A stretch of DNA of 64,000 bases from positions 62,001-126,000 of the forward strand of contig NZ_JAFLNC010000003.1 in assembly GCF_017313765.1 (NCBI RefSeq). The letters are read 5' to 3'. The stretch comes from Sneathiella sedimenti (GTDB lineage: Bacteria > Pseudomonadota > Alphaproteobacteria > Sneathiellales > Sneathiellaceae). Positions 4,859-21,855 of this stretch are shown here, piece after piece. The notes below the pieces were generated by a model that ran no database searches, was not told the origin of the DNA, and saw only the letters and a program-made list of their open reading frames with translations. The position numbers were made by a program, and so were the translations under genes. How positions within the stretch are numbered: the stretch's first letter is position 1; each line of letters starts with the position of its first letter.

Positions 4859-6637
4859 ATGTGCGGTATTTGCGGAGAAGTAACCTTTGATGGCACGCCT
4901 GTCTCTTTAGAGGCGATCGAAAAGATGATGGACACGATGGTGCCACGTGGACCGGATGCGGCGGGTGTCTATCTGCGCGATCAGGTCGCTTTCGGCCATC
5001 GACGGCTTAAAATTATTGATCTGTCCGAGCGGTCTCATCAGCCCATGGTCGATCTGGAGCTTGGTCTCTCGATCGCTTTCAACGGATGCCTCTACAACTA
5101 CCCAGAGTTACGACGCGAACTGGAAGGAAAAGGATATGGCTTTCATTCTGATGGGGATACGGAAGTAATATTGAAAGCCTTTGCGGAATGGGGCCCCGAT
5201 TGTGTACGCCGTTTTCAAGGGATGTTTGCTTTCGCCATTCAGGAGCGCGAAAGTGGCCGGCTCATTCTGGCGCGCGACCGCCTTGGCATCAAGCCGTTGT
5301 ACCTCTCCTATGGGGCATCCGGAAAGCGATTGAGATTTGCCTCTTCCCTGTTAGCGCTGTTGTCCGCAGGTGATGTCGATACCGCGATCAACCCTATCGG
5401 CCTGCATCATTACATGACATTTCACGCAGTAGTCCCGCCACCCCACACAATCCTTAAAGGCGTGGAGAAGCTACCGCCAGCAACTGTCCGTATTATTGAG
5501 GCTGATGGGCGCGTTCGAGACAAGCAATATTGGGAACTCAATTTCGCCCGTACGGATGAAGAGGAGAGGCGCCCCGTCGAGGAATGGCGGTCCGAGATAA
5601 TGGACGCCTTAAAGCGCGCCGTGAGTCGGCGTATGATTGCCGATGTTCCGGTTGGTGTGTTGTTATCTGGCGGGGTCGATTCCAGCCTGATTGTTGGCCT
5701 GCTTGCGGAAGCGGGGCAAACTGGCCTTAAAACTTTTTCGGTTGGGTTTGAAGAAGCCCATGGTGAAAAAGGGGACGAGTTCCAGTATTCAGACTTGATC
5801 GCCAGGCATTTCGGAACAGATCACTACAAGACGGTCGTCTCGTCCGACAGGCTTTTAAGCTCGCTACCCAAGGTGTTCGCGTCGATGTCAGAGCCCATGG
5901 TCAGTTATGATAACGTCGGCTTTTATCTTTTGTCGGAACAGGTCTCTCAACATGTAAAGGTTGTGCAGAGCGGACAAGGGGCTGACGAAATTTTTGCCGG
6001 CTACCATTGGTATCCGCCGCTTGAGAAGACAAACGACCCCGTGCATGATTACGCGAAGGTCTTTTTCGACCGCGACCACCAGGAATACATGTCGGCGATC
6101 TCGCCGGATCATGTATCCGACGATTATAGCCGTGCCTTCGTTGACGCACATTTCAGTTCGAACAATACCCCTTATCCGCTGGAGAAAGCACTCGGGTTGG
6201 ACACGACAGTTATGCTCGTCGACGACCCTGTTAAACGGGTGGATAATATGACAATGGCCTGGGGGCTGGAGGCGCGAGTGCCTTTTCTTGACCATGAACT
6301 TGTGGAGCTGGCGGCGAAAGTGCCCGCAAGCCACAAACTGGCAAGCGGGGGCAAGGGCATATTGAAAGATATCGCCCGCGACGTGATTCCGGAAGACGTG
6401 ATCGATAGGCCGAAGGGATATTTTCCGGTCCCTGCGTTGAAATATGTCGATGGGGAATATCTTGATTTTGTGTCGGATATCCTGAATTCACAGACAGCCA
6501 AAGAGCGCGGCCTCTTTCAGGACGACTACGTCGATATGCTGCTTGGTGATCCCACGGCGCATATTACACCGCTGAAAGGCTCCAAGGTCTGGCAGATAGC
6601 CACCCTTGAAATGTGGCTCCAGACAAATGGTATTTAA
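4859..6637 (+). CDS. asnO: N-acetylglutaminylglutamine amidotransferase
   Basis: Asparagine-synthetase-like enzyme of 592 residues that amidates the C-terminus in synthesis of the osmolyte N-acetylglutaminylglutamine amide. The class II glutaminase domain starts with the nucleophile Cys2 (MCGICGE) and includes RGPDAAG and FNGCLYNYPELR. The ATP-pyrophosphatase domain has the P-loop LLSGGVDSSLIVGLL near residue 268 and SGQGADEIFAGYHW near 375. These features are shared with AsnB; assignment to the NAGGN enzyme rests on the next two genes, which form the characteristic trio. In Sinorhizobium meliloti the homologue asnO, with ngg, was shown to make NAGGN under osmotic stress. Confidence 0.94.
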   Translation: MCGICGEVTFDGTPVSLEAIEKMMDTMVPRGPDAAGVYLRDQVAFGHRRLKIIDLSERSHQPMVDLELGLSIAFNGCLYNYPELRRELEGKGYGFHSDGDTEVILKAFAEWGPDCVRRFQGMFAFAIQERESGRLILARDRLGIKPLYLSYGASGKRLRFASSLLALLSAGDVDTAINPIGLHHYMTFHAVVPPPHTILKGVEKLPPATVRIIEADGRVRDKQYWELNFARTDEEERRPVEEWRSEIMDALKRAVSRRMIADVPVGVLLSGGVDSSLIVGLLAEAGQTGLKTFSVGFEEAHGEKGDEFQYSDLIARHFGTDHYKTVVSSDRLLSSLPKVFASMSEPMVSYDNVGFYLLSEQVSQHVKVVQSGQGADEIFAGYHWYPPLEKTNDPVHDYAKVFFDRDHQEYMSAISPDHVSDDYSRAFVDAHFSSNNTPYPLEKALGLDTTVMLVDDPVKRVDNMTMAWGLEARVPFLDHELVELAAKVPASHKLASGGKGILKDIARDVIPEDVIDRPKGYFPVPALKYVDGEYLDFVSDILNSQTAKERGLFQDDYVDMLLGDPTAHITPLKGSKVWQIATLEMWLQTNGI

Positions 6638-6648
6638 CACGAGGTAAA

Positions 6649-8442
6649 ATGATGACCTCAGTCAAACAGAATAGCCAAACCGATACATTGCGTGCCTCGC
6701 AGGTGTCCCTGAAAAATTGGGGCGATCCACCTGAAAGTGCGCGCGAAGGCGCAGTTGGGCGGAATGTGGCGATTGATTGCGGTTGGGGACGCCTGATTTT
6801 TGGCCAGACCTTCGATGATGCAAAATTTCTTGCGACAACCCTGTCGCAGGAAGTCGAAAGCCAGCGGGACGTCGCGATCTATGTGCATGAGCCTCATGTC
6901 GTACTTTCCTATGCCCCGCAGTCACTTTTCCTCGACCCTTCTCATACCTTCCGTCTTGATCTTACTCGTCGGCCAGAGCGGGCCATGACATCGAAACATT
7001 TCACGATTCGTGCGGCCGAGAAAGGGGACGAGAAGGGTATTAACCGCCTCTATCTCGGACGGGACATGGTGCCTGTCAGTGAAGGTTATATCGATCAGCA
7101 GAAATTGCATTCTGCGGTAGAGGTTCTGGTTGCCTTGGAAAACGAGGGCGCTGGTGAGATCATTGGTGTTGTCATGTCGGTAGATCATCAGCAGGCTCTA
7201 CAGGATCCTGACAACGGGTCCAGCCTCTGGGCCCTGGCTGTCGACCCGCAGGCACCTTTTCCCGGAATTGGAGAAGCATTGGTTGAAGCGCTTGCCGATA
7301 GGCGCGCGAAAGCGGGGCGTAGCTTCATGGACCTATCCGTGGTTCATGACAATCACGAGGCGATCGCGCTGTATCAAAAACTCGGTTTTGAACAGATACC
7401 GGTCTACACGATCAAGCATAAGAACCCGATCAATGAGAAGCTTTTTATCGGCCCGGAAGAGGATGCAAGTCTGAATGTTTATGCCAAAATCATTGTAGAT
7501 GAGGCGCGCCGCCGGGGTATCCAGGTAGAGATAGAGGACACCGAGGCAGGGCTATTTCGACTAAGTCATGGAGGGCGATCGATTGCCTGCCGTGAGTCGT
7601 TGAGTGACCTAACTTCCGCCGTGGCACTCAGCCGATGTGATGACAAGCGGCTCACTCATCGACTGCTCGAAAAAGCCGGGTTGCGACAGCCCGAGCAGAT
7701 CATCGTTACAAAGGATCAGGATGTCACCGAGTTTTGTACACGTCATAAGCGGGTCGTCGTGAAACCGGCCAGCGGCGAGCAGGGGCGGGGAGTATCAGTT
7801 GATCTCAATTCAGTTGAAGAGGTAACAGCGGCGATCAAACGCGCAAGAGAACTATGTGATAGCGTGATTCTTGAAGAATACGTAACCGGCCAGGACCTGC
7901 GAATAATTGTGATTAACGAGGAAGTCGTGGCGGCGGCAATCCGTCGTCCTCCGATCATCAAGGGCGACGGTGAAACCTCTATCAAGGCATTGGTTGAGAA
8001 ACTCTCTCGCCGCCGGGAGGCGGCAACCAACGGGGAAAGCAGTATTCCTATGGATGATGAAACGTTCCGGTGTGTAAGAGCTGCCGGACACAAAATGTCG
8101 GATGTCTTGCCAAAGGATGAGAGTATTACGGTACGTCGAACTGCCAATCTTCACACGGGTGGGACGATCCATGATGTCACCGATATATTGCATCGCGAAA
8201 TGCGCACTGCGGCCATTACCGTGGCTCAGACACTCGGCATTCCCGTGGTTGGTTTGGATTTTATTGTCGAAGATCCCGCCAAGCCGGGATACGCCGTAAT
8301 CGAAGCGAACGAGCGCCCCGGCCTTGCCAATCACCAGCCACAGCCGACCGTAGAAAAATTTATCGACTTATTGTTTCCCCAGACGAAGGCGGATTCCTAT
8401 CGTAGCACCACAAAAACCAGTGAGACATATGACCAAAATTAG
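6649..8442 (+). CDS. ngg: N-acetylglutaminylglutamine synthetase (GNAT/ATP-grasp fusion)
   Basis: Bifunctional enzyme of about 597 residues. A GNAT acetyltransferase lies at about residues 115-260 (WALAVDPQAPFPGIGEALVE is the acetyl-CoA loop region). An ATP-grasp ligase related to cyanophycin synthetase lies at about 330-590 (RVVVKPASGEQGRGVSVDLN, VILEEYVTGQDLRIIVINEE, VIEANERPGLANH). It is expected to acetylate glutamine and join it to a second glutamine. The start is set at the ATG pair 6649/6652, with GAGG just upstream; the open frame continues back into asnO but without a ribosome site. It begins 11 bases after asnO and overlaps the following peptidase gene. Confidence 0.93.
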   Translation: MMTSVKQNSQTDTLRASQVSLKNWGDPPESAREGAVGRNVAIDCGWGRLIFGQTFDDAKFLATTLSQEVESQRDVAIYVHEPHVVLSYAPQSLFLDPSHTFRLDLTRRPERAMTSKHFTIRAAEKGDEKGINRLYLGRDMVPVSEGYIDQQKLHSAVEVLVALENEGAGEIIGVVMSVDHQQALQDPDNGSSLWALAVDPQAPFPGIGEALVEALADRRAKAGRSFMDLSVVHDNHEAIALYQKLGFEQIPVYTIKHKNPINEKLFIGPEEDASLNVYAKIIVDEARRRGIQVEIEDTEAGLFRLSHGGRSIACRESLSDLTSAVALSRCDDKRLTHRLLEKAGLRQPEQIIVTKDQDVTEFCTRHKRVVVKPASGEQGRGVSVDLNSVEEVTAAIKRARELCDSVILEEYVTGQDLRIIVINEEVVAAAIRRPPIIKGDGETSIKALVEKLSRRREAATNGESSIPMDDETFRCVRAAGHKMSDVLPKDESITVRRTANLHTGGTIHDVTDILHREMRTAAITVAQTLGIPVVGLDFIVEDPAKPGYAVIEANERPGLANHQPQPTVEKFIDLLFPQTKADSYRSTTKTSETYDQN

Positions 8443-9559
8443 TGCAAGCAACAGAAACTACCTTATCAAGACATTGCAGGACCTTCTGGCAATCCCGAGC
8501 CCAACGGGCATGACGGATGACATCGTTGGGTATGTCTGCGGCGAACTGACCGAACTGGGAATTCCCTTTGAATTGACCCGTCGTGGCGCAATCCGTGCTG
8601 ACTTGAAGGGAGCCAGGTCGTCTCCCGACCGGGCCATTGTCTCTCATCTTGATACGCTCGGGGCCATGGTGAAGGGATATTATGACAATGGCCGCCTGCA
8701 GGTTGTTCCCATCGGGAGTTGGTCTGCCCGGTTTGCAGAAGGCGCGAGGGTGAGTGTATATGCGGATGACCGGCAATTTCGCGGGTCGATCCTGCCGTTA
8801 AAGGCTTCTGGGCATACCTATAATGACGAGATTGATACTCAGCCGATAGCCTGGACGAATCTGGAGCTTAGGTTGGATGAGAAAATCTCGAGTGAGGCGG
8901 AGGCGCGCGCCGCCGGACTCAATGTCGGTGATATTATCGCCATAGATCCTTCGCCCGAATTCACCGAGAAGGGGTTTATCTGCTCCCGTCATCTAGATGA
9001 CAAGGCGGGCGTTGCAGCAGTGTTGGCGGCGGCTAGTACGATCGTTGAGAACCGCATTCAGCTTCCCATCGACTGTCACCTGCTTTTCACCATTTCGGAA
9101 GAGGTAGGTGTCGGAGCCTCTCACGTATTGCATGGAGATGTTGCCGAACTTGTGTCGATAGATAACGGAACCATCGCTCCGCAGCAATACACTTCGGAGT
9201 ATGGGGTCACGGTGGCCATGCAGGACTCGAGCGGACCGTTCGACCGGCAGTTGACACAAAGCCTCATTCAGCTCTGTGAACAAAATGAGATCACTTATAG
9301 CCGCGATGTCTTTAGGTTTTATCGCAGCGATGCCGCGGCCGCTGTCGAGGCGGGAAATGATATTCGCACTGCGCTTCTATGCTTCGCGCTGGATTCCTCG
9401 CATGGCTATGAACGTACCCATATCGACTCTTTGACGGCGCTTGCGAACCTACTGGTACAATATGTAACAAGTAAACCGCTGTTTCAGCGTGACGAGGAGG
9501 CCCTGGGATCTGTTGGCGATCTGCCAATTACAAGTAAAGCGGAACCAGTGTCAGATTGA
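8429..9559 (+). CDS. NAGGN-system M42 family metallopeptidase
   Basis: Aminopeptidase-like di-metal hydrolase of 376 residues and third member of the NAGGN trio. Metal ligands are seen in order: His in VSHLDTLGAM, Asp in SRHLDDKAGVAA, the Glu pair in FTISEEVGVGASH, Asp in VSIDNGT and a late His in DSSHGYERTH. M42 enzymes cleave amino-terminal residues; in this operon it may turn over or edit the dipeptide, which is inference from context. The ATG at 8429 overlaps ngg by 14 bases, indicating translational coupling; an in-frame GTG at 8420 is an alternative start. Confidence 0.91.
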   Translation: MTKISASNRNYLIKTLQDLLAIPSPTGMTDDIVGYVCGELTELGIPFELTRRGAIRADLKGARSSPDRAIVSHLDTLGAMVKGYYDNGRLQVVPIGSWSARFAEGARVSVYADDRQFRGSILPLKASGHTYNDEIDTQPIAWTNLELRLDEKISSEAEARAAGLNVGDIIAIDPSPEFTEKGFICSRHLDDKAGVAAVLAAASTIVENRIQLPIDCHLLFTISEEVGVGASHVLHGDVAELVSIDNGTIAPQQYTSEYGVTVAMQDSSGPFDRQLTQSLIQLCEQNEITYSRDVFRFYRSDAAAAVEAGNDIRTALLCFALDSSHGYERTHIDSLTALANLLVQYVTSKPLFQRDEEALGSVGDLPITSKAEPVSD

Positions 9560-9610
9560 ACACAAGAATGGCATATGAGTTTATCTGCTAGGTGGCAACT
9601 AAACTGCAAA

Positions 9611-10837
9611 TCATGCAGCTACTGGCCTCTCGGGCGGCTTGTATAGGGCAAACATGATCTGTGCCATTCCGGCGAAAAGCCCCAATCCGACGCCAATTTG
9701 CAGGGCAAGATCATAGGATCCCAGCAGATCAAACAACCAGCCGCCACCGAAGGCACCGAAAAAGCTCCCAATTTGGTGGCTGAAAAAGGCGAGCCCCTGG
9801 ATCATGGCTTGCCACCGCAGGCCGAACATTTCAACGACAGATCCGGCGACCAGCGGCGATACACCGAGCCAGAGAAAACCCATAACGGCGGCAAAGAAGA
9901 TCGTTGTCGTCGGGGTCGGGGGGAGAATGAAGTAAACGGCAAGGGTAAATGATCGTGAAATATAGATAATTCCCAGCAAGACCTGTTTTGACCAGCGGCC
10001 GCCGGCCCAGCCAAAGAACAGGCTACCCAGGACATTGAAGCCCCCAATGATACCGAGAGCGGATGCCCCAAGCATCGGGTCCATTCCGCAAATAACGAGA
10101 TAAGAGGGCAGATGCGTCGTCAGGAAAACGAGCTGCATCCCGCAGACGAAATAAGCAATGGCCATGACCAGAAACGGTGCGTGCCGGAAGGCAACTGCGA
10201 TAGCGGCTCCCGCGGGAAGGCGGTCGGAATTGTTTGCGGAAAGCTCCAGTGGCGCTTCCTTGTCGACGCGCCCGGCAATCCAGGCCGCAGGAATGATAAC
10301 CAGGGCGACGACAGTAAAGCCGATCAAGCCAATGCGCCAATCATAGAGTGATTCAAGAAGCTGCCCGAGCGGCGCAGTAAACATTGCCCCGACCGAACCT
10401 GCGGCAGACATTATGCCAAGAGCCGTGCTGCGGATAGATGTCGGAACCAACCGTGAGGTGAGGGACATTGTCATGGCAAAGGACGCACAGGCCATGGCAA
10501 TGCCAACGCAAATACCGGCACCAAAAATGACCATTGCAATCCCGTTTGCGTTTGCGAGAGACGTCATTCCAATAGCGTAAAACACTGCCCCGCCAACCAT
10601 AACCGGCCGATATCCCCATTTATCAGCAAACATGCCGGCAAATGGTTGGCATAGGCCCCAGACCAGGTTCTGCATGGCAATTGCGAAGGTAAAATCGGTA
10701 ATCGTGACCGCAATATCCTGGGTAAGCGATGGCATAAAAAGGCCAAGGCTTTGCCGAAGACCGAAGCTCAGGCTCAACATCACAGCGCCGGCGATCAGGA
10801 TAGGAAGAACTGGGCGTAAGGCCCGTATGCTGGACAT
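9611..10837 (-). CDS. MFS transporter
   Basis: Major facilitator of about 408 residues with twelve apparent membrane segments. The loop 2-3 motif reads FAGMFADKWGYRPVMVGG, close to the classical G-x-x-x-D-R-x-G-R-R. The first segment LRPVLPILIAGAVMLSLSFG begins right after the ATG at 10835-10837, which I prefer over an in-frame GTG at 10867 with no ribosome site. The closest style is the oxalate/formate or monocarboxylate-type MFS branch, so an organic acid is a reasonable guess but unproven. It follows the duplicated GSHGG protein gene on the same strand, 187 bases downstream, and may be part of that unit. Confidence 0.9.
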   Translation of the reverse strand: MSSIRALRPVLPILIAGAVMLSLSFGLRQSLGLFMPSLTQDIAVTITDFTFAIAMQNLVWGLCQPFAGMFADKWGYRPVMVGGAVFYAIGMTSLANANGIAMVIFGAGICVGIAMACASFAMTMSLTSRLVPTSIRSTALGIMSAAGSVGAMFTAPLGQLLESLYDWRIGLIGFTVVALVIIPAAWIAGRVDKEAPLELSANNSDRLPAGAAIAVAFRHAPFLVMAIAYFVCGMQLVFLTTHLPSYLVICGMDPMLGASALGIIGGFNVLGSLFFGWAGGRWSKQVLLGIIYISRSFTLAVYFILPPTPTTTIFFAAVMGFLWLGVSPLVAGSVVEMFGLRWQAMIQGLAFFSHQIGSFFGAFGGGWLFDLLGSYDLALQIGVGLGLFAGMAQIMFALYKPPERPVAA

Positions 10838-11024
10838 TGTTAAAGTACCGTTCTTATTGTTTTGCACACATATAATATGAAGGTGTGACTTTTAGCAAAC
10901 GAGTTTATTGAAATTCGCCGGGTTAAGAAAATCAGTTTTAAGAACCGGGTGGTTGAGTTATGAGAGCAATTGCCTGTCTACAGTTTATAGATATTCAAAC
11001 AAGTATCCAGGTAGGCCCGTGGTC

Positions 11025-11819
11025 TCAAAGACTGTTGAGCCAATCTTTGAGTTTCATGCCAACAGCAGCGCCCGTCCGGCTCGCGTACAGATTTGCTTTC
11101 GATACTACCCCTGTTTCAAGAGCGGACCGGGCGTCGCCGATCCGCGCCGTTTCGTGTGAGACAGTTACGGCGGCAACAGCGCGATCATCGAGGGCAGGTA
11201 ACCGCGAAATACCTACTTCATCGGATATCACTCCGGCATCGTTAAAGACAGCTACTTTGGCGACGGCCTTTAAGGCACGCTCAGGGTTTCCCCCAATCAA
11301 CCCGCCATGTGATCCTGTGATAATGATCTTGTTCTTGTCTTCCGCCTTCACAAGTGACGCCGAATCCACCAATAGTATGTCCAGTCCGTTCCGCTCAAGC
11401 CGCAACTCATATCGAGCTTCCTGAACCTCAGGCAAACGATCCCCTGGCTGCTGCGCATTCGCAAGGGCCAATACTGCCTTATCCGCAGGCATGCCGGTTT
11501 CGACCCCACAACGTGCGGCAACCGAATTGGCGATGGTAATAATTCCCCGCGCAAGGGCATCTTCCGCTGATCCTATCAGGCAACTGCGGCTATCGATGGC
11601 GGCGGCAGCCATGCCAACCTTCGCCAGACTGAGAACCCCGGCAACTCCCGCTTGATCGAGACCAATTCCAGCATCATTGAACAACACAGCGCGTATTCCC
11701 GCTGAGGAGGCGATTGCGGCGGGATAGATGCCGCCGTGTGAGCCGGAAACGACAACCTTGCCCCGGTGTCCCTCATCCGCATCCGTGATTGAATCTAGTA
11801 AAATCGGTAAATTTGTCAT
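11025..11819 (-). CDS. Uncharacterised protein with two GSHGG...FNDAG half-repeats
   Basis: Protein of 264 residues, no signal peptide, not recognised as any enzyme. It is visibly an internal duplication. Half one (residues 20-110) has KVVVSGSHGG at 21-30, AVLFNDAGIGLDQAGV at 44-59, AAAAIDSRSCLIG at 71-83 and a closing TGM. Half two (163-258) has KIIITGSHGG at 164-173, VAVFNDAGVISDEVGI at 189-204, AAVTVSHETARIG at 216-228 and a closing VGM. Such repetition of Gly/His/Asp motifs suggests a pseudo-symmetric active or binding site. I recall unnamed proteobacterial proteins of this type but no characterised one. It is divergent from the IclR gene, whose candidate operator lies between them, so it probably belongs to the same regulon. 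Confidence 0.85.
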   Translation of the reverse strand: MTNLPILLDSITDADEGHRGKVVVSGSHGGIYPAAIASSAGIRAVLFNDAGIGLDQAGVAGVLSLAKVGMAAAAIDSRSCLIGSAEDALARGIITIANSVAARCGVETGMPADKAVLALANAQQPGDRLPEVQEARYELRLERNGLDILLVDSASLVKAEDKNKIIITGSHGGLIGGNPERALKAVAKVAVFNDAGVISDEVGISRLPALDDRAVAAVTVSHETARIGDARSALETGVVSKANLYASRTGAAVGMKLKDWLNSL

Positions 11820-11878
11820 TTTTTGACTTTACCCATCTTGACTCTTTGCTTCAATAAGTTTCAAATTACGCAACAAAA

Positions 11879-11897
11879 AATTCCGATAAACGGAATT
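11879..11897. promoter_or_regulatory. Inverted repeat, candidate IclR operator
   Basis: AATTCCG and CGGAATT form a perfect 7-bp inverted repeat around the spacer ATAAA. It lies 13 bases before the iclR ATG and 60 bases from the divergent gene start, where an autoregulating IclR protein commonly binds. Assignment to this regulator is inference. Confidence 0.5.
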
Positions 11898-11910
11898 ATT
11901 GGGAGACGTA

Positions 11911-12693
11911 ATGACAAGCTTGTCACCACCAAAAGGTTCGATAGCTCGCGCAGCACGTGTGCTGGATGTGTTGTCACTTGCCCCAGATGGTGCGGATCTT
12001 ACGGAAATTGTGGCTCAGTCCAAATTCACCAAAACAACCACGTTTCGCGTGTTGGCGTCGTTGCGTGAGATCGACTACGTCTTTCAGGATCCTGCCACGC
12101 GGATTTATCGGCTTGGGTCCAAGCTTGCCGAGCTATCCCGAAATGCTGAACGAATTAATGTAAGCGCACTTGCAGAGCGAGGCATGGCGCGGCTGGCGGA
12201 AATGTCTGAGGATACGGTTTTTCTCTCGGTGCCTGAAGGAGCTGTGTCTATTTGTGTCAACAGAAAGGTCGGCGCCTTTCCCATCCGAACTCTTACTCTG
12301 GATAAAGGCGATCGCAGACCTTTGGGCGTGGGCGCCGGTTCACTCGCCCTTTACTGCTCCCTCTCTGATGAACAGAGGGCGGCAGTTTGCCGGGTCAACA
12401 AGAGCTGGCTGACTGACTATGGCGTAACTGAAGAGGGGCTCGCCGCAGAATACAATTTCTTTAAGGCAAATGGTTACGCCCGCAATAAGGGAGGGGTCGT
12501 TCGCGGAATGAGTGCGATTGCCGTGCCTGTCGTAACGGCTAGCGGCCGGTTGGTCGCGGCCCTTGCTATCGGCGCCATTAATGAGCGGATGGAGCAGTCG
12601 CGTATCGATAATCTTATTCTGCCGGGATTAAAAAGAGAGGCTAGGCGACTTGCTGGCCGGTTTAACGCATTGGAAAAGGAACAGAATAAATGA
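11911..12693 (+). CDS. IclR family transcriptional regulator
   Basis: Regulator of 260 residues. The winged helix-turn-helix is at about residues 8-70 (IARAARVLDVLSLAPDGADL, then FTKTTTFRVLASLREIDYVF). The C-terminal IclR effector domain follows, with DTVFLSVPEGAVSICVNR, RRPLGVGAGSLALYCSL and RGMSAIAVPVVTASGRLVAA. The ATG at 11911 has GGGAG five bases upstream. Its TGA overlaps the E1 alpha start in an ATGA arrangement, so it is translated as the first gene of the plus-strand catabolic operon and probably controls it together with the divergent minus-strand genes. Confidence 0.94.
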   Translation: MTSLSPPKGSIARAARVLDVLSLAPDGADLTEIVAQSKFTKTTTFRVLASLREIDYVFQDPATRIYRLGSKLAELSRNAERINVSALAERGMARLAEMSEDTVFLSVPEGAVSICVNRKVGAFPIRTLTLDKGDRRPLGVGAGSLALYCSLSDEQRAAVCRVNKSWLTDYGVTEEGLAAEYNFFKANGYARNKGGVVRGMSAIAVPVVTASGRLVAALAIGAINERMEQSRIDNLILPGLKREARRLAGRFNALEKEQNK

Positions 12694-13688
12694 CTTCTGC
12701 CGGTCATAATTTCGAGCGCGGACGATCGTTGCTCGAGATGATGGAACGTATTCGCGCTTTTGAGGAGCAGGCCTGTCTGGCGGCTGAGCGTGATAAGCTG
12801 GTCCTTGGTGCTATTCACCCGTCCATCGGTCAGGAAGCGGTGGCTGCCGGTATCATGCATAATCTTTCCAAGGAAGACATTCTGCTGTCAACTCATCGTG
12901 GTCATGGCCACACCTTGGCCAAGGGCGCGAGTTCCCTTGCGATGATGCGGGAACTGCTGGGCCGGGAAGGTGGTTGTTGCGGTGGCAAGGGCGGTTCAAT
13001 GCACATCGCGGATTTTGATGTCGGGATGCTAGGCGCCAACGGGGTTGTCGGTGCCAATATCACGATAGCGGCCGGCGCGGCGCATGCCATCAAGCTGTTG
13101 GGTGACAATAGAATAGTAGTGGATATTTTTGGGGACGGTGCGATTAACCGGGGTCCATTCCTGGAAGGTATAAACTGGGCTGTCGTCTTCAAGCTTCCCA
13201 TACTTTTCGTTTGCGAGGATAACCAGTATTCCGCAACAACCAGGACGGCGTCCATGACCGCGGGCGAGGGAGCGGCAGCACGTGCTGCGTCGTTAGGGAT
13301 GCGCGCGACAACAGTTGACGGGAACGATGTTGAGGCGATCGCGGATACGGTTGCGGATATTGCAGCGCGCTTGCGTGCCGGAGGTCCACCCGAATTCCTT
13401 CATGCAAAAACCTACCGCCGTACCGGCCACACGTCATTTGACCCCGCAACCTATCGTCCGGCAAACGAGTCGACTGAAGAAGAGAAAAAGAACGATCCGA
13501 TAAAACGCCAGCGCGCTGTTCTCGTGGCGGCGGGCATGTCTGAAGCCAACTTACAGTCCTTACATGAGAATGCTCAGAAAGAAATGATAGACGTACTTAA
13601 AAAAGCTGCGGAAACGCCCTTCCCGGCGAGTGAAACTGCTTTCCAGGATGTGCAGGACATAGGCAGTCCCGCGGTGGAGGCGTATTGA
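12690..13688 (+). CDS. ThDP-dependent 2-oxoacid dehydrogenase E1 component, alpha subunit
   Basis: Protein of 332 residues, the size of acetoin or pyruvate dehydrogenase E1 alpha. Family signs: LSTHRGHGHTLAKGAS near residue 70, REGGCCGGKGGSMHIADF near 90-107, and the thiamine-diphosphate motif from GDGAINRGPFLEGINWA to FVCEDNQYS near 148-185. The region TYRRTGHTSFDP matches the phosphorylation-loop/active-site stretch. It couples with the beta subunit immediately downstream. No E2 (lipoyl acyltransferase) or E3 gene lies nearby, so the acceptor of the two-carbon unit is not evident. Acetoin, pyruvate or branched-chain oxoacid are all possible substrates. Confidence 0.93.
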   Translation: MTSAGHNFERGRSLLEMMERIRAFEEQACLAAERDKLVLGAIHPSIGQEAVAAGIMHNLSKEDILLSTHRGHGHTLAKGASSLAMMRELLGREGGCCGGKGGSMHIADFDVGMLGANGVVGANITIAAGAAHAIKLLGDNRIVVDIFGDGAINRGPFLEGINWAVVFKLPILFVCEDNQYSATTRTASMTAGEGAAARAASLGMRATTVDGNDVEAIADTVADIAARLRAGGPPEFLHAKTYRRTGHTSFDPATYRPANESTEEEKKNDPIKRQRAVLVAAGMSEANLQSLHENAQKEMIDVLKKAAETPFPASETAFQDVQDIGSPAVEAY

Positions 13689-14665
13689 TGCCAAAACTGA
13701 CCTATAGAGACGCGAGCCTTGCTGCCATCCAACATTCCATGCGCGAGGACCAGACGGTCTGGTGTGTGGGGGAAGATTTAGGACGTGGCGGTGTTTTTGG
13801 CCAGTATAAAGGATTACGTGAAGAATTCGGCGAATCCCGGATTTCCGATGCACCAATTTCGGAAGCGGCCATTATGGGCGCGGCCTTTGGCGCAGCCATG
13901 ATCGGGACGCGGCCCATTGTCGAAATGCGGTTTTCAGATTTTGCCCTCTGCGCGACGGATGAGTTGGTCAACCAGATTGCCAAAGCCCGTTTCATGTTTG
14001 GGGGCCAGTCACGGGCTCCAATGGTGATCAGAAAGCCGATGGGGCTCTGGCGATCCTCTGCGGCGCAGCATTCTCAGTCTCTTGAGAGCTGGTATGTGCA
14101 TATCCCTGGGCTTGTGGTTGTCTGCCCAGGAACGCCACAGGATAATTATTCGATGTTGAAGGCGGCGATCGCCTGTGATGATCCTGTGGTCTATCTCGAG
14201 CATAAGGGCATCTGGGATCTGGAAGGCGACGTTGATTTCTCGAAAGAATATGAGTTCGGGAAGGCCGAAATACGGCGTGAAGGTTCAGATGTCACCATCG
14301 TCAGCTGGTCCAATACCGCGAACCTGGCGGTTGAAGCAGCAGAGGCGCTCTCTGAACAGGGCATAGATGCTGAAGTGATCGACCTTCGTAGCCTATGGCC
14401 ATGGGATAAAGAGGCCGTACTGAAGAGTGTCGCCAAAACAGGGCGTCTGGTCGTCACCCATGAGTCGGTTGCTGTTGGTGGTTTCGGGGCCGAAGTTGTC
14501 GCGACTGTCGCCGAACAGGCTGGTCATGCTCTTAAAGGTCCGGTTCGCCGGCTTGGAGCGCCCCGATCGCTGGTGTCCTATGCACCAAATCTTGAAGACA
14601 TGCTGCGCGTTACCTCCGAAATGATAGTAACGGCGGCGCAAGAAACTCTCAAAAAGGCAAGTTAA
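13688..14665 (+). CDS. ThDP-dependent 2-oxoacid dehydrogenase E1 component, beta subunit
   Basis: Protein of about 325 residues, partner of the preceding alpha subunit. Conserved E1 beta stretches are VGEDLGRGGVFGQYKGL, SDAPISEAAIMGAAFGAAM, EMRFSDFALCATDELVNQIA, GVVCP-type region LVVVCPGTPQDNYSML, and DLRSLWPWDKEAVLKSV in the transketolase C-terminal domain. The ATG at 13688 has a GGAGG site and overlaps the alpha stop by one base (TGATG); a TTG three bases earlier is also in frame. The HSQSLESWYVHIPGL segment near residue 125-140 is the usual position of the catalytic His. Confidence 0.93.
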   Translation: MPKLTYRDASLAAIQHSMREDQTVWCVGEDLGRGGVFGQYKGLREEFGESRISDAPISEAAIMGAAFGAAMIGTRPIVEMRFSDFALCATDELVNQIAKARFMFGGQSRAPMVIRKPMGLWRSSAAQHSQSLESWYVHIPGLVVVCPGTPQDNYSMLKAAIACDDPVVYLEHKGIWDLEGDVDFSKEYEFGKAEIRREGSDVTIVSWSNTANLAVEAAEALSEQGIDAEVIDLRSLWPWDKEAVLKSVAKTGRLVVTHESVAVGGFGAEVVATVAEQAGHALKGPVRRLGAPRSLVSYAPNLEDMLRVTSEMIVTAAQETLKKAS

Positions 14666-16395
14666 TGATTAAAAATGAAATGACAGGCGGTGAAGCGCTG
14701 GTTCGGATGCTGCTCGCACATGAAGCGGGCCCGATGTTTGGTATGGGCGGATTTCAGCTTCTGCCGTTCTATGATGCAGCACGGCGTTTGGGCCTTAACC
14801 ACAATCTGATCAATGACGAACGTTGCGCGGTGTTCGCGGCGGACGCCTATGCCAAGGTGTCAAACCGCGTTGGCTTGGTTGATGCGACATTGGGGCCGGG
14901 GGCGACGAATCTCGTAACCGGGCTGGTGGAGGCTTTGAATGCGGGGTCCCCAATGGTTGCCATTATCGGTGATGCCCACCGTGATCATGCAGGCAAGAAC
15001 ATGACGCAGGAAACGGATCAGGTGTCCATTCTCCGTCCGGCGTGCAAGGAGCTTCTTAAAGTCGAGACCATTCACCGGATTCCGGAAATCATGCGTCGTG
15101 CCTTCGCCGTCGCCACGTCAGGCCGGCCGGGGCCGGTTGTCGTAAATGTGCCCGAAGACATTGCACATGGAACGCATAACTTTGAACCGGAAGATTTCGA
15201 GGTAGATGGTGCCCATGCAAGGATGCCAGCCCTTCGTTGCCGTCCCGATGCAGAGATGGCGGCTAAAGCGGCCGCTCTTATTGCGACGGCGAAGCGGCCA
15301 ATGATCCTCTGCGGTGGCGGTATTCATATTTCGGGCGCACAAGAGGAAGTCACTCGTCTGGCAGAGGCCTGCAGTATTCCGGTTGCGCATACACTGACCG
15401 GAAAGGGGGCGATTGCCTGCTCCAGCCCGCTTAGTGCGGGACTGTTCGGGCGCTATGACCGTATAGCCAATGACCTCATTGCGAAGAGCGACTGCTTGCT
15501 CGTTGTTGGGTGTAAACTCGGCGAGATTGCCACCAAACGCTATACAATCCCGGAAGCCAATGGCCCTGTCATCCATCTCGATATCGTAGCAGAGGAAATG
15601 GGGCGGACATATCAGCCGGCATTGAAGCTCTGGGGGGATGCCAAGTCCGGGTTGAGTGATCTTTATGATTTGCTGAAAGACAACGCGGATGAGCAGCGGC
15701 AAATGCGCGAAAGCTATGTCGCAGAAATTCCCCAGAAAATGGCGGCCTGGCGGGAAGATGTTTCAGAGCGTCTTAATTCAGATGAATCTCCCGTGCACAT
15801 GGCGCGCCTAATAACGGAAATCAACAAGTTGTTGCCGGAAGACGGCTATCTCGTTGCGGACGGAGGTTTCGCCGCGCATTGGGGAGGCTTGCTTTTCGAT
15901 ACAAAGAAAGCAGGCCGCGCATTTGTGCCGGATCGTGGCTTCGCCTCAATCGGATATGGGTTGCCCGGCGCAATGGGTGTTCAGTTGGCGCAGCCGGAAG
16001 CAATCGTGGTCGGGATTACCGGCGACGGCGGTTTCAATATGGTTCTGGGAGAGCTCGAAACGGCCCGCAGAATGAATCTTGGCGTCACCATTATTGTTGT
16101 AAACAATGCCGCATCCGGATATGTCAAAGCTCTGCAGCATTTGATGTATGGGGATGGAAACTACCAGTCTTCGGAACTGTCGGAGACCAACTACGCCAGT
16201 GTGGCGAATGCCATGGGGTGCCATGGAATTCGTGTTGAAAGTCCAGATCAGCTGGAAACTGCTCTGCTCAGCGCATTTTCTGAGAAAAATCGCCCAAGCG
16301 TAGTAGATGTCGTCGTGACGAGAGACCCCGCAAGAATGCTTCCTGCGGTGGATAACAGGACCGTACAGGTCAAAAAGGGAGACCGCGTCGCATAA
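14665..16395 (+). CDS. Acetolactate synthase/benzoylformate decarboxylase-like ThDP enzyme
   Basis: Single-chain thiamine-diphosphate enzyme of 576 residues with the three-domain plan: N-terminal pyrimidine-binding domain (about 1-170), middle domain (190-330), C-terminal PP-binding domain (365-560). The catalytic Glu lies in LINDERCAVFAADAYAKVS near residue 53. The ThDP motif runs from GDGGFNM through TIIVVNNAASG near 453-485. LGPGATNLVTGLVEALNAGS is typical of acetolactate synthases. There is no regulatory subunit gene, and the gene sits inside a catabolic operon, so biosynthesis of branched-chain amino acids is unlikely. The reaction is undetermined: decarboxylase, carboligase or C-C hydrolase are possible. 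It overlaps the E1 beta stop by one base. Confidence 0.9.
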   Translation: MIKNEMTGGEALVRMLLAHEAGPMFGMGGFQLLPFYDAARRLGLNHNLINDERCAVFAADAYAKVSNRVGLVDATLGPGATNLVTGLVEALNAGSPMVAIIGDAHRDHAGKNMTQETDQVSILRPACKELLKVETIHRIPEIMRRAFAVATSGRPGPVVVNVPEDIAHGTHNFEPEDFEVDGAHARMPALRCRPDAEMAAKAAALIATAKRPMILCGGGIHISGAQEEVTRLAEACSIPVAHTLTGKGAIACSSPLSAGLFGRYDRIANDLIAKSDCLLVVGCKLGEIATKRYTIPEANGPVIHLDIVAEEMGRTYQPALKLWGDAKSGLSDLYDLLKDNADEQRQMRESYVAEIPQKMAAWREDVSERLNSDESPVHMARLITEINKLLPEDGYLVADGGFAAHWGGLLFDTKKAGRAFVPDRGFASIGYGLPGAMGVQLAQPEAIVVGITGDGGFNMVLGELETARRMNLGVTIIVVNNAASGYVKALQHLMYGDGNYQSSELSETNYASVANAMGCHGIRVESPDQLETALLSAFSEKNRPSVVDVVVTRDPARMLPAVDNRTVQVKKGDRVA

Positions 16396-16430
16396 TGCGC
16401 GGTTTTAATAATATAGGGAAGGAAAAGACA

Positions 16431-17447
16431 ATGAAATTGTATGCTTTGCTTGCTTCCGCGTTGATTGGTGTTGCCAGTATTTCACCGTCATTTGCGGCCG
16501 ATTATAAGTCCGAGTACAAGGTCTCAACCGTTGTGCCTGCGCCGTTTCCTTGGGGACTTGCTGCCGACAAATGGATCGAGCTGGTACGGGAACGTTCCGA
16601 TGGCCGGATCAATATGAAAGCCTATCCTGGCACGCAGCTTGTTGCAGGGGAACAAACGAAGGAATTCACCGCGGTACGCAAGGGTGCAATTGACATGTCT
16701 GTCAGCTCCACCATTAACTGGTCACCGCAAATTCCGGAAATGAATATCTTCGCACTGCCTTTCCTGATTCCGGATTACAAGGCGATGGATGCATTGACAG
16801 GGGGTCCTGTCGGGGAAGAAATCTTTGAAATTGTCCGGTCAAAAGGTGTTGAGCCTCTTGCTTGGGCTGAAAACGGATTTCGGGAACTGACAAACTCCAA
16901 AAGGGAAGTGCGGTCGCCCGCGGATCTGGAAGGGATGAAAATCCGTGTTGTTGGCTCTCCGCTGTTTAACGACACCTTCACTGCCTTTGGTGCCAACCCT
17001 GCGCAGATGAGCTGGGCGGATGCCAAACCTGCACTGACCACGGGCGCTGTCGATGGCCAGGAAAACCCATTGACGATTTTTACCATCGCGAAAATGCATC
17101 TGGTTGGCCAGAAATATGTCACCACCTGGGGATATGTTGCAGACCCCCTCATCTTTGCAGTTAGCCATCGGGTCTGGAACGACTTCACCCCGGAAGATCA
17201 GGAAATTATTCGTCAGGCAGCAATTGATGCCGGCGCTTACGGTATTGAAGTTGCCCGTAAGGGTCTGACTGAAGGCGACGACTCCCTGTACAAGGAAATT
17301 GAGGGTCTCGGCGTTACAGTGACGCATCTGACGGATGAAGAACGGCAGAAGTTTGTCGACGCAAGCCGTGGCGTCTATGAGAAGTGGACGGAAATTGTCG
17401 GTCCTGATCTGGTGAAAAAGGCGGAAGAAAGTGTCGCCAACCGCTGA
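16431..17447 (+). CDS. TRAP transporter solute-binding protein (DctP type)
   Basis: Periplasmic binding protein of 338 residues with a Sec signal MKLYALLASALIGVASISPS ending in FAA. The ATG at 16431 has a GGAAGGAAAAG site; an upstream in-frame ATG at 16395 has none. Family signs: LTNSKREVRSPADLEGMKIR with the carboxylate-binding Arg in KIRVVGSP, GANPAQMSWADAKPALTTGA and VDGQENPLTIF. The binding pocket Arg implies an organic-acid substrate, fitting import of the 2-oxoacid or hydroxy-acid handled by the enzymes upstream, which is inference. Confidence 0.94.
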   Translation: MKLYALLASALIGVASISPSFAADYKSEYKVSTVVPAPFPWGLAADKWIELVRERSDGRINMKAYPGTQLVAGEQTKEFTAVRKGAIDMSVSSTINWSPQIPEMNIFALPFLIPDYKAMDALTGGPVGEEIFEIVRSKGVEPLAWAENGFRELTNSKREVRSPADLEGMKIRVVGSPLFNDTFTAFGANPAQMSWADAKPALTTGAVDGQENPLTIFTIAKMHLVGQKYVTTWGYVADPLIFAVSHRVWNDFTPEDQEIIRQAAIDAGAYGIEVARKGLTEGDDSLYKEIEGLGVTVTHLTDEERQKFVDASRGVYEKWTEIVGPDLVKKAEESVANR

Positions 17448-17535: not shown

Positions 17536-18039
17536 ATGGAACACGAAAAAGCTGCCGATACAGAAGACAGCCCGCAAGAAAAATATCCATTTCGAATAGA
17601 GGAGGCGATTGGTGCCCTGGCTATGGGGCTGATTTGTCTCATCAGTATTCTGAATGTTGTCGTCCGGTATGCAACTAATGTGTCCTTCGCCTTCACGGAG
17701 GAATACTCAGTCTTTCTTCTTGTCATTGTCACCTTCGTTGGCGCGGGGCTGGCCTATACCAATAAGGGTCATATCTGCATCACATTTGTGGTGAACAAGC
17801 TGGGTCGCCCCGGTCAGTTTTTTCTGAACTCTATTGCCTTTTTCTCTTCTGTCATCATGTTCGCCCTGCTTGTCTATTACGGTTCGGACCTGGCGATCGA
17901 CGAGTATTTATTCGAGGAGACATCTCCCGCCCTCGGTTATCCCACCTGGATTTACACGATGTGGCTGCCGCTACTCTCCCTGGCGGTGCTTGTCAGGATT
18001 TTCCAGGTGCAATGGAATGAACTGAGGAAAAAGAAATGA
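17536..18039 (+). CDS. TRAP transporter small permease (DctQ type)
   Basis: Membrane protein of 167 residues with four hydrophobic segments (about 27-47, 57-77, 95-115, 135-155). The stretch VVVRYATNVSFAFTEEYSVF, with VTFVGAGLAYTNKGHI after it, is the conserved DctQ signature region. It forms the membrane complex with the large permease downstream, with which it overlaps by four bases (ATGA). The start ATG lies 88 bases after the binding protein stop, beyond the hairpin. Confidence 0.93.
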   Translation: MEHEKAADTEDSPQEKYPFRIEEAIGALAMGLICLISILNVVVRYATNVSFAFTEEYSVFLLVIVTFVGAGLAYTNKGHICITFVVNKLGRPGQFFLNSIAFFSSVIMFALLVYYGSDLAIDEYLFEETSPALGYPTWIYTMWLPLLSLAVLVRIFQVQWNELRKKK

Positions 18040-19331
18040 GCGTGCATCTCATCCTTCTCGGGTCATTTTTTCTGATCCTCATTTCAGGGGCCCCGATTTC
18101 CGTAGCTCTCGGTCTATCTGGCGTCATCGCGATATTTTTCGGTCTCGATATGGATGCTGTCGCGAATATGAGCACCATTACCTATGCCAGTATCGCCAAA
18201 TATCCGCTTATCGCTATACCGCTATTTATTCTGACAGGCATGATATTCGAGCGATCCGGGGTGGCAGAGCGATTGGTTGAGCTGTCGCGCGCGATTGTCG
18301 GTCCACGGCGTGGCGGCCTTGCGCTGGTTGCCATACTGGTTTGCCTTATTATGGGCGGAATGTCCGGTTCAGGTCCCGCAGATGCGGCCGCTGTAGCAAC
18401 CGTTATGATCCCAAGCATGTTGAAGGAAGGATATCCGCGCGCTTTCTCCGCCAGTATTATTGCAGCGTCTGCCTCAACTGCGATTTTGATCCCGCCCTCC
18501 ATCGCCTTGATTGTTTATTCAATTATGGTTCCTGGCGTCGATCTACGCGCTCTCTTCGCGGCGGGCTTGTTCCCCGGGCTGCTTGCAGGCCTCGCTGTAG
18601 CCATCCCGGCACTTCTGATCAGTCGCCGGCGGGGATTCGGGTCGGAAGCAGATTCGGGACGCCCACCGCTTGGGAAAAGCTTTATCCGGGCACTACCAGG
18701 ATTGTTCGCTCCGGTCATTATCCTTGGTGGTTTGCGCAGCGGCCTGTTTACACCGACCGAAGCGGCGGCAGTTGCCGTCTTTTATGGATTGATTGTCGGC
18801 CTGCTTTTGCATCGTTCCATGAATATGCGGGACATTTATAATGTCCTCGCTGAATCCGCCCAGATTTCTGCGGTGGTGATGATCATTATTTCACTGGCGG
18901 GAATATTTGCCTTTGCCGGCTCTATCCTGGGAACCTTTGACGCGGCAGCAGGGCACATCCTGTCTATCTCGGATTCGCCAATGGTCGTCCTGATTTTGGT
19001 TATGGCTATTGTCTTGCTTGCGGGAATGGTACTGGACGGGGTCTCGATCTATCTGATTGCCCTTCCGTTGCTCATGCCCATCATGGCGACTCTTGGCTGG
19101 AATCAGGTGTGGTTTGGAGTTCTTATGGCCATGAACGTCGCAATTGGTCAGTTTACCCCGCCGGTTGCCGTTAATTTGATGGTCACTGCGAAAATCGCGA
19201 ATGTGCCGATTGAAGCGACGATGCGTTGGGTCCTTTGGCCAATCATTGCGATGATAATCTCTGTCGGTCTGGTGATTGCCTTTCCGTCGATTGCTCTCTG
19301 GCTGCCCACCGTTCTCGGATACAAAGTGTAG
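18036..19331 (+). CDS. TRAP transporter large permease (DctM type)
   Basis: Inner-membrane channel subunit of 431 residues with roughly twelve hydrophobic segments. Typical DctM stretches are GAPISVALGLSGVIAIFFGL, PLFILTGMIFERSGVAERLV, CLIMGGMSGSGPADAAAVAT, ILIPPSIALIVYSIMV, FTPTEAAAVAVFYGLIVG and the late IGQFTPPVAVNLMVTAKIAN. It uses the sodium gradient with DctQ and the DctP-like protein to import a solute, probably the substrate of this operon. It is the last gene before a 200-base spacer. Confidence 0.95.
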   Translation: MSVHLILLGSFFLILISGAPISVALGLSGVIAIFFGLDMDAVANMSTITYASIAKYPLIAIPLFILTGMIFERSGVAERLVELSRAIVGPRRGGLALVAILVCLIMGGMSGSGPADAAAVATVMIPSMLKEGYPRAFSASIIAASASTAILIPPSIALIVYSIMVPGVDLRALFAAGLFPGLLAGLAVAIPALLISRRRGFGSEADSGRPPLGKSFIRALPGLFAPVIILGGLRSGLFTPTEAAAVAVFYGLIVGLLLHRSMNMRDIYNVLAESAQISAVVMIIISLAGIFAFAGSILGTFDAAAGHILSISDSPMVVLILVMAIVLLAGMVLDGVSIYLIALPLLMPIMATLGWNQVWFGVLMAMNVAIGQFTPPVAVNLMVTAKIANVPIEATMRWVLWPIIAMIISVGLVIAFPSIALWLPTVLGYKV

Positions 19332-20529: not shown

Positions 20530-21855
20530 TTACTGGAACAGGTAGTTCGGCAGCCAAAGTGCAATTGCCGGAAACAGGACGATCAGGAACAGCCCTGTTA
20601 GTTCGACCAACGTATATGGACCAACGGACCAGTAGATGTCTTTCATCGTGACATCTGGCGGTGCGACGGAACGCAGGTAGAAAAGGTTAAACCCAAAGGG
20701 CGGCGTCATATAACTGATTTCCATCATGACGACGAACAGGATGCCGAACCAGACCGGGTCAAAACCGTGGCTTGCGACCAACGGCAGGAACACGGGCAAA
20801 GTAATCAACATGATGCCGACTGGGTCAAGAACCATACCCAGAATAAAGAGGACGAACATCATGAAGCCAAGCGCGCCCCATTTACCGCCCGGGATCTGCT
20901 GGGTAATGTGCGTGATGAATTCCTCAGCGCCCATTGCGGTATAAGCCATTGAATAGGCATGCGCCGCGAAAACAATCCAGGTGATAATTGTCGTTAGCCT
21001 GAATGTGCGAAGAGAGGACTGGGAAACTACCGTCCAGGTCAATTTTCGGTTTACGGCGCTAGCTACCAAGGCTCCGAAAACGCCGACTGCCGCGGCCTCA
21101 GTGACCGTTGCGAAGCCCCCGAATATGGCGCCTAGCACGATTACAATGATGAAAATTGGCAGGAAGACGGATCGCAATGCCCCGATCTTCTCGCTCCAGC
21201 TTGCCCGTTCTTCCTTGGGAAGAGCAGGCCCAAGATGCGGCTGAAACCAGCATCGTACGCCAATGTAAATCGACACCAGGGCGAACAGGAGCAAGCCGGG
21301 GAAAACGCCCGCGGCGAACAACTTGCCGACCGAAACCTCTGTAATGAGGGCATAGAGCACCATGAGGATCGAGGGCGGGATCAATATTCCCCAGCCACCG
21401 CCGGCGTTAATGGCACCCAATGCGAGTTGCTTGTCGTAGCCTCGGCTCAGCATTTGGGGCAAAGCGATTGTCCCCATCGTCACAACCGCAGCGCCCGAAA
21501 TTCCCGACATGGCGGCAAAAATCGTACAGATGCCAACAGTTCCGATGGCCAGTCCGCCACGCACGCCGCCCCACCACAAATGCATCATTCGGTATAGGTC
21601 GTGCGCCACGCCACTCCGCTCAAGCAGCATTGCCATGAAAACATATAGCGGGATTGCAATTAGGGATGATGTTTCCATCAAGTCCCACATCTTGGACGCA
21701 ATCAGGTAAAAAGCGATCGGACCCTGTTCAAAATAGAGGAATATAACCGACAGGCCGCCTAGGACGAAGGCCAAAGGCACACCAAGCATAATGAACAAAA
21801 ACAGAAGGCCAAAGAAAAGGAGGGTCAATACCTCAATATTCAGGAGCTCATACAT
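20530..21855 (-). CDS. TRAP transporter large permease (DctM type), second system
   Basis: Membrane protein of 441 residues with about twelve hydrophobic segments. Signature stretches: MLGVPLAFVLGGLSVIFLYF, PLYVFMAMLLERSGVAHDLY, FAAMSGISGAAVVTMGTIAL, ILIPPSILMVLYALITEVSV, GFATVTEAAAVGVFGALVAS and MEISYMTPPFGFNLFYLRSV. The last resembles TRAP systems for 2-oxoacid, mannitol-type or sulfonate substrates, but the substrate cannot be fixed. Its ATG overlaps the small permease stop by one base. It shares only family-level resemblance with the first system, so it is not a recent duplicate. Confidence 0.95.
   Translation of the reverse strand: MYELLNIEVLTLLFFGLLFLFIMLGVPLAFVLGGLSVIFLYFEQGPIAFYLIASKMWDLMETSSLIAIPLYVFMAMLLERSGVAHDLYRMMHLWWGGVRGGLAIGTVGICTIFAAMSGISGAAVVTMGTIALPQMLSRGYDKQLALGAINAGGGWGILIPPSILMVLYALITEVSVGKLFAAGVFPGLLLFALVSIYIGVRCWFQPHLGPALPKEERASWSEKIGALRSVFLPIFIIVIVLGAIFGGFATVTEAAAVGVFGALVASAVNRKLTWTVVSQSSLRTFRLTTIITWIVFAAHAYSMAYTAMGAEEFITHITQQIPGGKWGALGFMMFVLFILGMVLDPVGIMLITLPVFLPLVASHGFDPVWFGILFVVMMEISYMTPPFGFNLFYLRSVAPPDVTMKDIYWSVGPYTLVELTGLFLIVLFPAIALWLPNYLFQ

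Follow-up and report, generated by a model that had tools for sequence, protein, structure and literature searches.

A duplicated protein with a predicted TA1206-like fold that co-occurs with two ThDP enzymes in Alphaproteobacteria

Background

The closest described relative, in predicted fold, of the protein considered here is TA1206 of Thermoplasma acidophilum (PDB 1QW2), a member of the DUF1805/YunC superfamily with no assigned function. Whereas TA1206 is a single domain, the subject protein consists of two fused domains, each with a predicted fold like that of TA1206, and the weak similarity in sequence between the two proteins falls at the C-terminal end of the domain (the G-x-x-x-G-M region). 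DUF1805 sequences, judged from the plasmid members compared, do not carry the GSHGG, NDAG and ARIGD motifs of the subject family. A second described system bears on the genomic context, namely the apionate-type pathway, which comprises the OiaX decarboxylase, the OiaK kinase and the PGDH_C oxidoisomerase, and of which the subject protein is reportedly not a part. 2-Hydroxy-2-alkyl-3-oxo acids, such as 3-oxo-isoapionate and acetolactate, are substrates of OiaK and OiaX on the one hand and products of acetolactate-synthase-like enzymes on the other.

Searches of the literature (mostly outside subscription journals) on GSHGG, the function of DUF1805, TA1206 and the gene trio returned nothing useful, and within the reach of these searches we met no description of the motif set, the duplication, the apionate-like context or the ThDP module. 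The main new result is the three-way co-occurrence of the subject gene with an acetolactate-synthase-like ThDP enzyme and an E1-alpha subunit.

Duplication and conserved residues

The subject gene lies at 11025-11819 on the minus strand of the window, the whole 64-kb stretch of DNA that was analysed, and encodes a protein of 264 aa from an ATG start, with the stop codon included in these coordinates; the corresponding frame of the plus strand is rich in stops. Its N-terminal repeat (residues 1-126; 11442-11819, minus strand) carries DSIT, GSHGG, FNDAG, SCLIGSA and N98, and its C-terminal repeat (residues 142-264; 11028-11396, minus strand) carries DSAS, GSHGG, FNDAG, TARIGDA and N243. The initial annotation had placed GSHGG at residues 26-30 and 169-173, FNDAG at 47-51 and 192-196, had noted a closing GM, all of which we confirm (GM at 109-110 and 254-255), and had proposed an ancient intragenic duplication on the grounds that the halves align without large gaps. 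Residues 6-110 and 149-255 do align with a single gap of 2 residues, and the duplication is borne out by the local alignment score of 153, which none of 2000 shuffles approached (highest 68, mean 34.6, sd 6.2; z = 19), and by a comparison of the family profiles of the N and C halves, which extends over 121 columns at a probability of 100% and an E of 1e-45. The repeat unit is about 115 residues long and present in two copies, with identical residues at 38 of 119 equivalent positions.

The conserved His and Asp noted in the same annotation are present in each half across 52 homologs, as part of a larger set retained in both halves that comprises Asp9/152, Ser27/170, His28/171, Asp49/194, Ser(Thr)95/240 and Asn98/243, together with Ile82/227 and Gly92/237. 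Arg81/226 and Asp84/229 are the family consensus of both halves in these homologs, a consensus from which the N half of the window protein departs, with Leu81 and Ser84 replacing Arg and Asp; the same two residues predominate at 81 and 84 in its nearest relatives. Natural single-domain homologs of about 125-137 aa also exist (L090, L091 and L092, and L112 from outside Alphaproteobacteria), and because such one-copy proteins occur, the half can be regarded as the evolutionary unit and the fused form as having arisen by duplication of a free-standing domain.

Predicted fold and relationship to DUF1805

AlphaFold2 models had a mean pLDDT of 95.3 for the whole protein (48 homologs, with plasmid rows left out of the alignment) and 96.9 for the N half alone (61 half-sequences). 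When compared with the PDB, the modelled C half (residues 127-264) was best matched by 1QW2, with Z 8.5 over 94 of 102 residues and an rmsd of 3.0 A, and the N half again had 1QW2 at the top, with Z 7.7 over 81 residues; a Z near 8 lies in a range where middling values are common, and these matches are moderate rather than conclusive evidence. 1QW2 was nonetheless the sole chain clear of background, the following rows standing at Z 4.9 and 5.0. Foldseek searches with the whole and N-half models returned nothing below E 0.001. The two halves are predicted alike, as the structure-prediction check proposed with the duplication anticipated.

Sequence comparisons point in the same direction. Pfam DUF1805 (PF08827) is matched by 37 of the 52 homologs, at a best E of 3e-8, and by the window protein itself at 20.3 bits (E 6.8e-4), which does not reach the gathering cut-off of 29.5, and a profile comparison of the subject family with DUF1805 sequences gave a probability of 73%. 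Because the structural Z scores agree with these matches, we take both halves to be remote TA1206/DUF1805-like domains with a motif set of their own. The predicted fold (Z 8.5 and 7.7) is that expected of a DUF1805 member, but the architecture is not that of a single short domain, the protein being duplicated and its core carrying GSHGG, NDAG and ARIGD. The earlier opinion that no known enzyme family fits has held up, in that no Pfam or NCBIfam family exceeded its cut-off for the subject protein and phmmer found no match to it among PDB sequences at E 1. The fold of the protein, as predicted, is a known one (TA1206-like) with no assigned function.

A number of other relationships were considered and set aside. 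Residues 76-125 (window 11028-11819) show a short resemblance in sequence and structure to a segment of Y-family DNA polymerases, with some 27-50 residues in common (the GxIS-x-x-N-x-x-A-x-x-x-G region) and the rest of the polymerase absent, and it was chiefly this segment that the whole-family profile found in the PDB. The stretch is possibly a common local motif. Membership of the Y family (IMS, PF00817) was rejected as a local resemblance, at 20.7 bits against a cut-off of 23.2 and over only about 47 of 148 positions, and DepH, matched by a half-profile against the PDB at E 0.0075 over three weak stretches, was judged likewise. No acetolactate decarboxylase family appeared at E 0.1 in Pfam or NCBIfam. 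The Asp/Glu racemase superfamily needs one catalytic Cys per lobe, and there is no conserved Cys in either half; these pseudo-symmetric, cofactor-free enzymes were weighed as a functional analogy only.

Neighbourhood in the window and a probable operator

Divergent from the subject gene is a regulator of the IclR family (11899-12693, plus strand; IclR_C 8.5e-14, HTH_IclR 3.3e-10), whose true start is probably an ATG about 12 bases inside the called start. It is followed on the same strand by genes that Pfam and NCBIfam matches identify as an E1-alpha-like ThDP subunit (12690-13688), an E1-beta-like ThDP subunit (13685-14665) and an acetolactate-synthase-like ThDP enzyme (14665-16395), the last scoring 401 bits against TIGR00118, of the acetolactate synthase/glyoxylate carboligase branch, where the cut-off is 538. 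Next come the TRAP solute-binding protein DctP (16395-17447; DctP 4.3e-71) and, assigned by size, position and cluster, a DctQ-like small permease (17536-18039) and a DctM-like large permease (18036-19331), both of which recur as neighbours elsewhere. Downstream of the subject gene on the minus strand is an MFS transporter (9611-10867), with best matches of the monocarboxylate/oxalate-formate type; it recurs in 5 subject loci, four of them within the window's own clade.

Between the subject gene and the IclR gene is the palindrome AATTCCG-TTTAT-CGGAATT (11879-11897), a probable IclR operator. The core TTCCG-N5-CGGAA occupies the interval between the two genes in the window and in five other loci (L001, L002, L047, L049 and L052), and lies just upstream of IclR in L050, so that 7 of the 9 exact sites in 1.18 Mb of loci are at such positions (6 + 1); the 64-kb window holds 1, where 0.14 would be expected. 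In three loci (L060, L076 and L079) IclR adjoins the subject gene and the exact site is absent. The placement of the conserved palindrome between divergent genes makes common control of the subject gene and IclR likely.

Co-occurrence with two ThDP enzymes

The subject gene was found in 47 of 385 sampled Alphaproteobacteria (about one in eight), while a phylum-wide sample of 398 gave 6 genomes with a match, two of these being single-domain forms outside Alphaproteobacteria. Distant matches occur on plasmids of haloarchaea, Rhodococcus, Rhizobium and others, and all annotated plasmid matches of the family are labelled 'hypothetical protein'. Genomes with an ortholog of the window's acetolactate-synthase-like enzyme carry the subject family in 34 of 36 cases, as compared with 13 of 349 genomes without one, and those with an E1-alpha ortholog carry it in 36 of 36 cases, as compared with 11 of 349, orthologs of E1-alpha thus being restricted, in the sample of 385, to subject-family genomes. 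All three genes are found together in 34 genomes with 17 family labels. Fisher p values for the co-occurrence range from 1e-35 to 1e-44, ignore phylogeny and are descriptive, and we set the ortholog thresholds ourselves (E 1e-100 and 1e-85), excluding two ThDP matches at 37% identity.

Of the 34 genomes, 27 have the ThDP gene no more than 8 kb from the subject gene and 7 have it unlinked; for E1-alpha, linkage is missing in 10 of 36. Because the unlinked genomes also keep the genes, the association is more than linkage. Constant linkage to ThDP enzymes, which the initial annotation had suggested surveying, is therefore upheld as very strong co-occurrence (34/36 and 36/36) but not as a rule, since both ThDP enzymes are missing from 11 of the 47 genomes with the subject gene, and in haloarchaea the gene accompanies a different set. 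All three genes are absent from three genomes of the genus to which the window belongs. The two genomes with the ThDP enzyme in which both E1-alpha and the subject gene are absent (G053 and G087; loci L115 and L114) have enzymes 60-62% identical to the window's, which in L115 lies between hydantoinase-like genes. Around 58 subject loci, by our own gene calls, the recurring neighbours are the acetolactate-synthase-like enzyme (35), E1-beta (30), E1-alpha (30), an SDR (20), TRAP components (14-18) and IclR (15), and no E2/E3 partner for the E1 pair was recognised among them.

We are confident that the subject protein belongs to a TRAP/E1/ThDP catabolic module. Near-strict joint inheritance with two ThDP enzymes implies that its gene marks an uncharacterised pathway of sugar-acid or keto-acid breakdown, and a 'hypothetical' gene of about one in eight sampled Alphaproteobacteria appears tied to a pathway that combines a TRAP importer, an IclR regulator and a pair of ThDP enzymes. 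The strictness of the co-occurrence makes both pathway and substrate directly testable by way of the neighbouring solute-binding protein.

A second context and other settings

In haloarchaea and one alphaproteobacterium (L113) the gene has a second context, made up of a RuBisCO-like decarboxylase (RLP), a DUF1537 kinase and PGDH_C. On plasmids of Haloterrigena, Haloarcula and Natrinema it stands beside the RLP, the kinase, an SDR, an HpcH aldolase, TRAP genes and IclR; the RLP and kinase have OiaX and OiaK as best matches, and a neighbour contains PGDH_C. In L113 the RLP, kinase and PGDH_C genes run in the same direction as the subject gene (9511-13956 of that locus) and a few bases before it, with a gluconolactonase-like SGL protein near by. 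Distant homologs of the apionate-type enzymes thus adjoin the subject gene in these genomes, whereas there are none near it in the window itself, and because the OiaX and OiaK matches (448-530 bits) fall under the equivalog cut-off of 700, the substrate may be something other than an apionate-like compound.

The remaining settings are varied, and include beta-oxidation-like clusters in Rhodococcus and Rhizobium as well as neighbours of the CMD, RraA, HpcH and hydantoinase types. Divergent members at L087:10011-10355 and L088:382-714 are followed directly by a gene of the carboxymuconolactone decarboxylase family, and an SDR flanks the subject gene in Methylovirgula, Rhizobium and the single-domain L112 locus. 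A third association with ThDP comes from a group of three genomes (L095:11156-14951, L084 and L085), where a 717-aa ThDP protein (TPP_enzyme_C 1.5e-12) resembling an indolepyruvate oxidoreductase is encoded near the gene. DUF1805 itself is followed by a histidine-kinase-type gene on five beta-proteobacterial plasmids (L098, L099, L100, L101 and L102) and preceded by a PAS-domain gene on three of them (L098, L100 and L102), an arrangement of genes that suggests a sensory role there.

Possible functions

The protein is best read as a dedicated part of an uncharacterised catabolic module, a membership that is well supported, and our tentative proposal is that it serves there as a cofactor-independent isomerase or epimerase, or else a decarboxylase, for 2-hydroxy-3-oxo acids. 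By sequence and predicted fold, one TA1206/YunC-like domain was duplicated and joined to give a fused pseudo-dimer, the single-domain relatives presumably being homodimers. On the evidence of co-occurrence, linkage and the common palindrome, the fused protein belongs to an inducible module of TRAP importer, E1-alpha/beta ThDP enzyme and acetolactate-synthase-like ThDP enzyme, putatively controlled by IclR, in which it would act on 2-hydroxy-2-alkyl-3-oxo acids. A candidate site would bring together the conserved Asn and, from the motifs, Ser-His (GSHGG), Asp (NDAG) and Arg/Asp (ARIGD); all three motifs are predicted to come after a strand, where active sites of alpha/beta proteins usually lie. 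An isomerase/epimerase or decarboxylase seems most likely because the second context, by analogy with OiaX, OiaK and ApnO, would also centre on a 2-hydroxy-2-alkyl-3-oxo acid, and this common acid type is both the basis of the reaction hypothesis and its weakest step. Against a role in hydroxy-keto-acid chemistry are the beta-oxidation-like, CMD, RraA, HpcH and hydantoinase contexts, which do not obviously involve such acids; against the proposed reaction is the N half of the window protein, which is without the consensus Arg and Asp (L81, S84); and against the decarboxylase option is the duplication of the RLP role that it would entail in L113. It is plausible, at somewhat below an even chance, that this is a new pseudo-dimeric enzyme family on the TA1206/YunC fold, with the first catalytic function for that fold and an obligatory step of the TRAP/E1/ThDP pathway in many Alphaproteobacteria and, in altered form, haloarchaea. 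A role in the module would give the TA1206/DUF1805 fold its first link to a function.

The main rival is a non-catalytic binding or regulatory subunit, whose two pockets would bind substrate and control or stabilise the ThDP enzymes or IclR. The very strict co-occurrence with two ThDP enzymes would suit such a subunit, as would the sensor-like histidine-kinase/PAS setting of DUF1805 on the five plasmids, but DUF1805 proper is without the subject-family motifs, the polar motifs are about 90% conserved over many families, as is commoner in catalytic proteins, and 11 of 47 genomes have the gene but neither ThDP enzyme, and it turns up as well in unrelated catabolic clusters; we consider this rival unlikely. 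A decarboxylase analogous to acetolactate decarboxylase, which would turn the product of the acetolactate-synthase-like enzyme into an acyloin for cleavage by the E1 pair, would account for the exact trio of genes. Its chances are nevertheless slim, given the lack of an acetolactate decarboxylase match in Pfam or NCBIfam, the fact that no E2 gene recurs in the neighbourhood to partner the E1 pair, and its redundancy with the RLP in the second context.

Equally slim is the case for a hydrolase or lactonase that opens a lactone formed by the neighbouring SDR dehydrogenases. The conserved Ser, His and Asp and the frequency of SDR genes (20 loci, with flanking positions in Methylovirgula, Rhizobium and L112) speak for it, yet L113 already has the SGL protein near the subject gene, E1/ThDP clusters contain no lactone chemistry, and no hydrolase fold stands out when either half is compared with PDB structures. 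That the gene is a passenger with no role in the pathway would explain its distance from the ThDP genes in some genomes; co-occurrence over 17 family labels (with p values of about 1e-35 to 1e-41 that ignore phylogeny), the common probable operator and the strong conservation of the motifs make this extremely improbable.

Other features of the window

Beyond the module, on the opposite strand, is a second TRAP large-permease-like gene (20533-21855, minus). On the other side of the subject gene, a plus-strand cluster at 4859-9559 resembles an NAGGN osmoprotectant system, with an asparagine-synthase-like ORF, a GNAT/ATP-grasp-like ORF and an M42 peptidase that scores 555.7 against TIGR03106, where the cut-off is 397.75.
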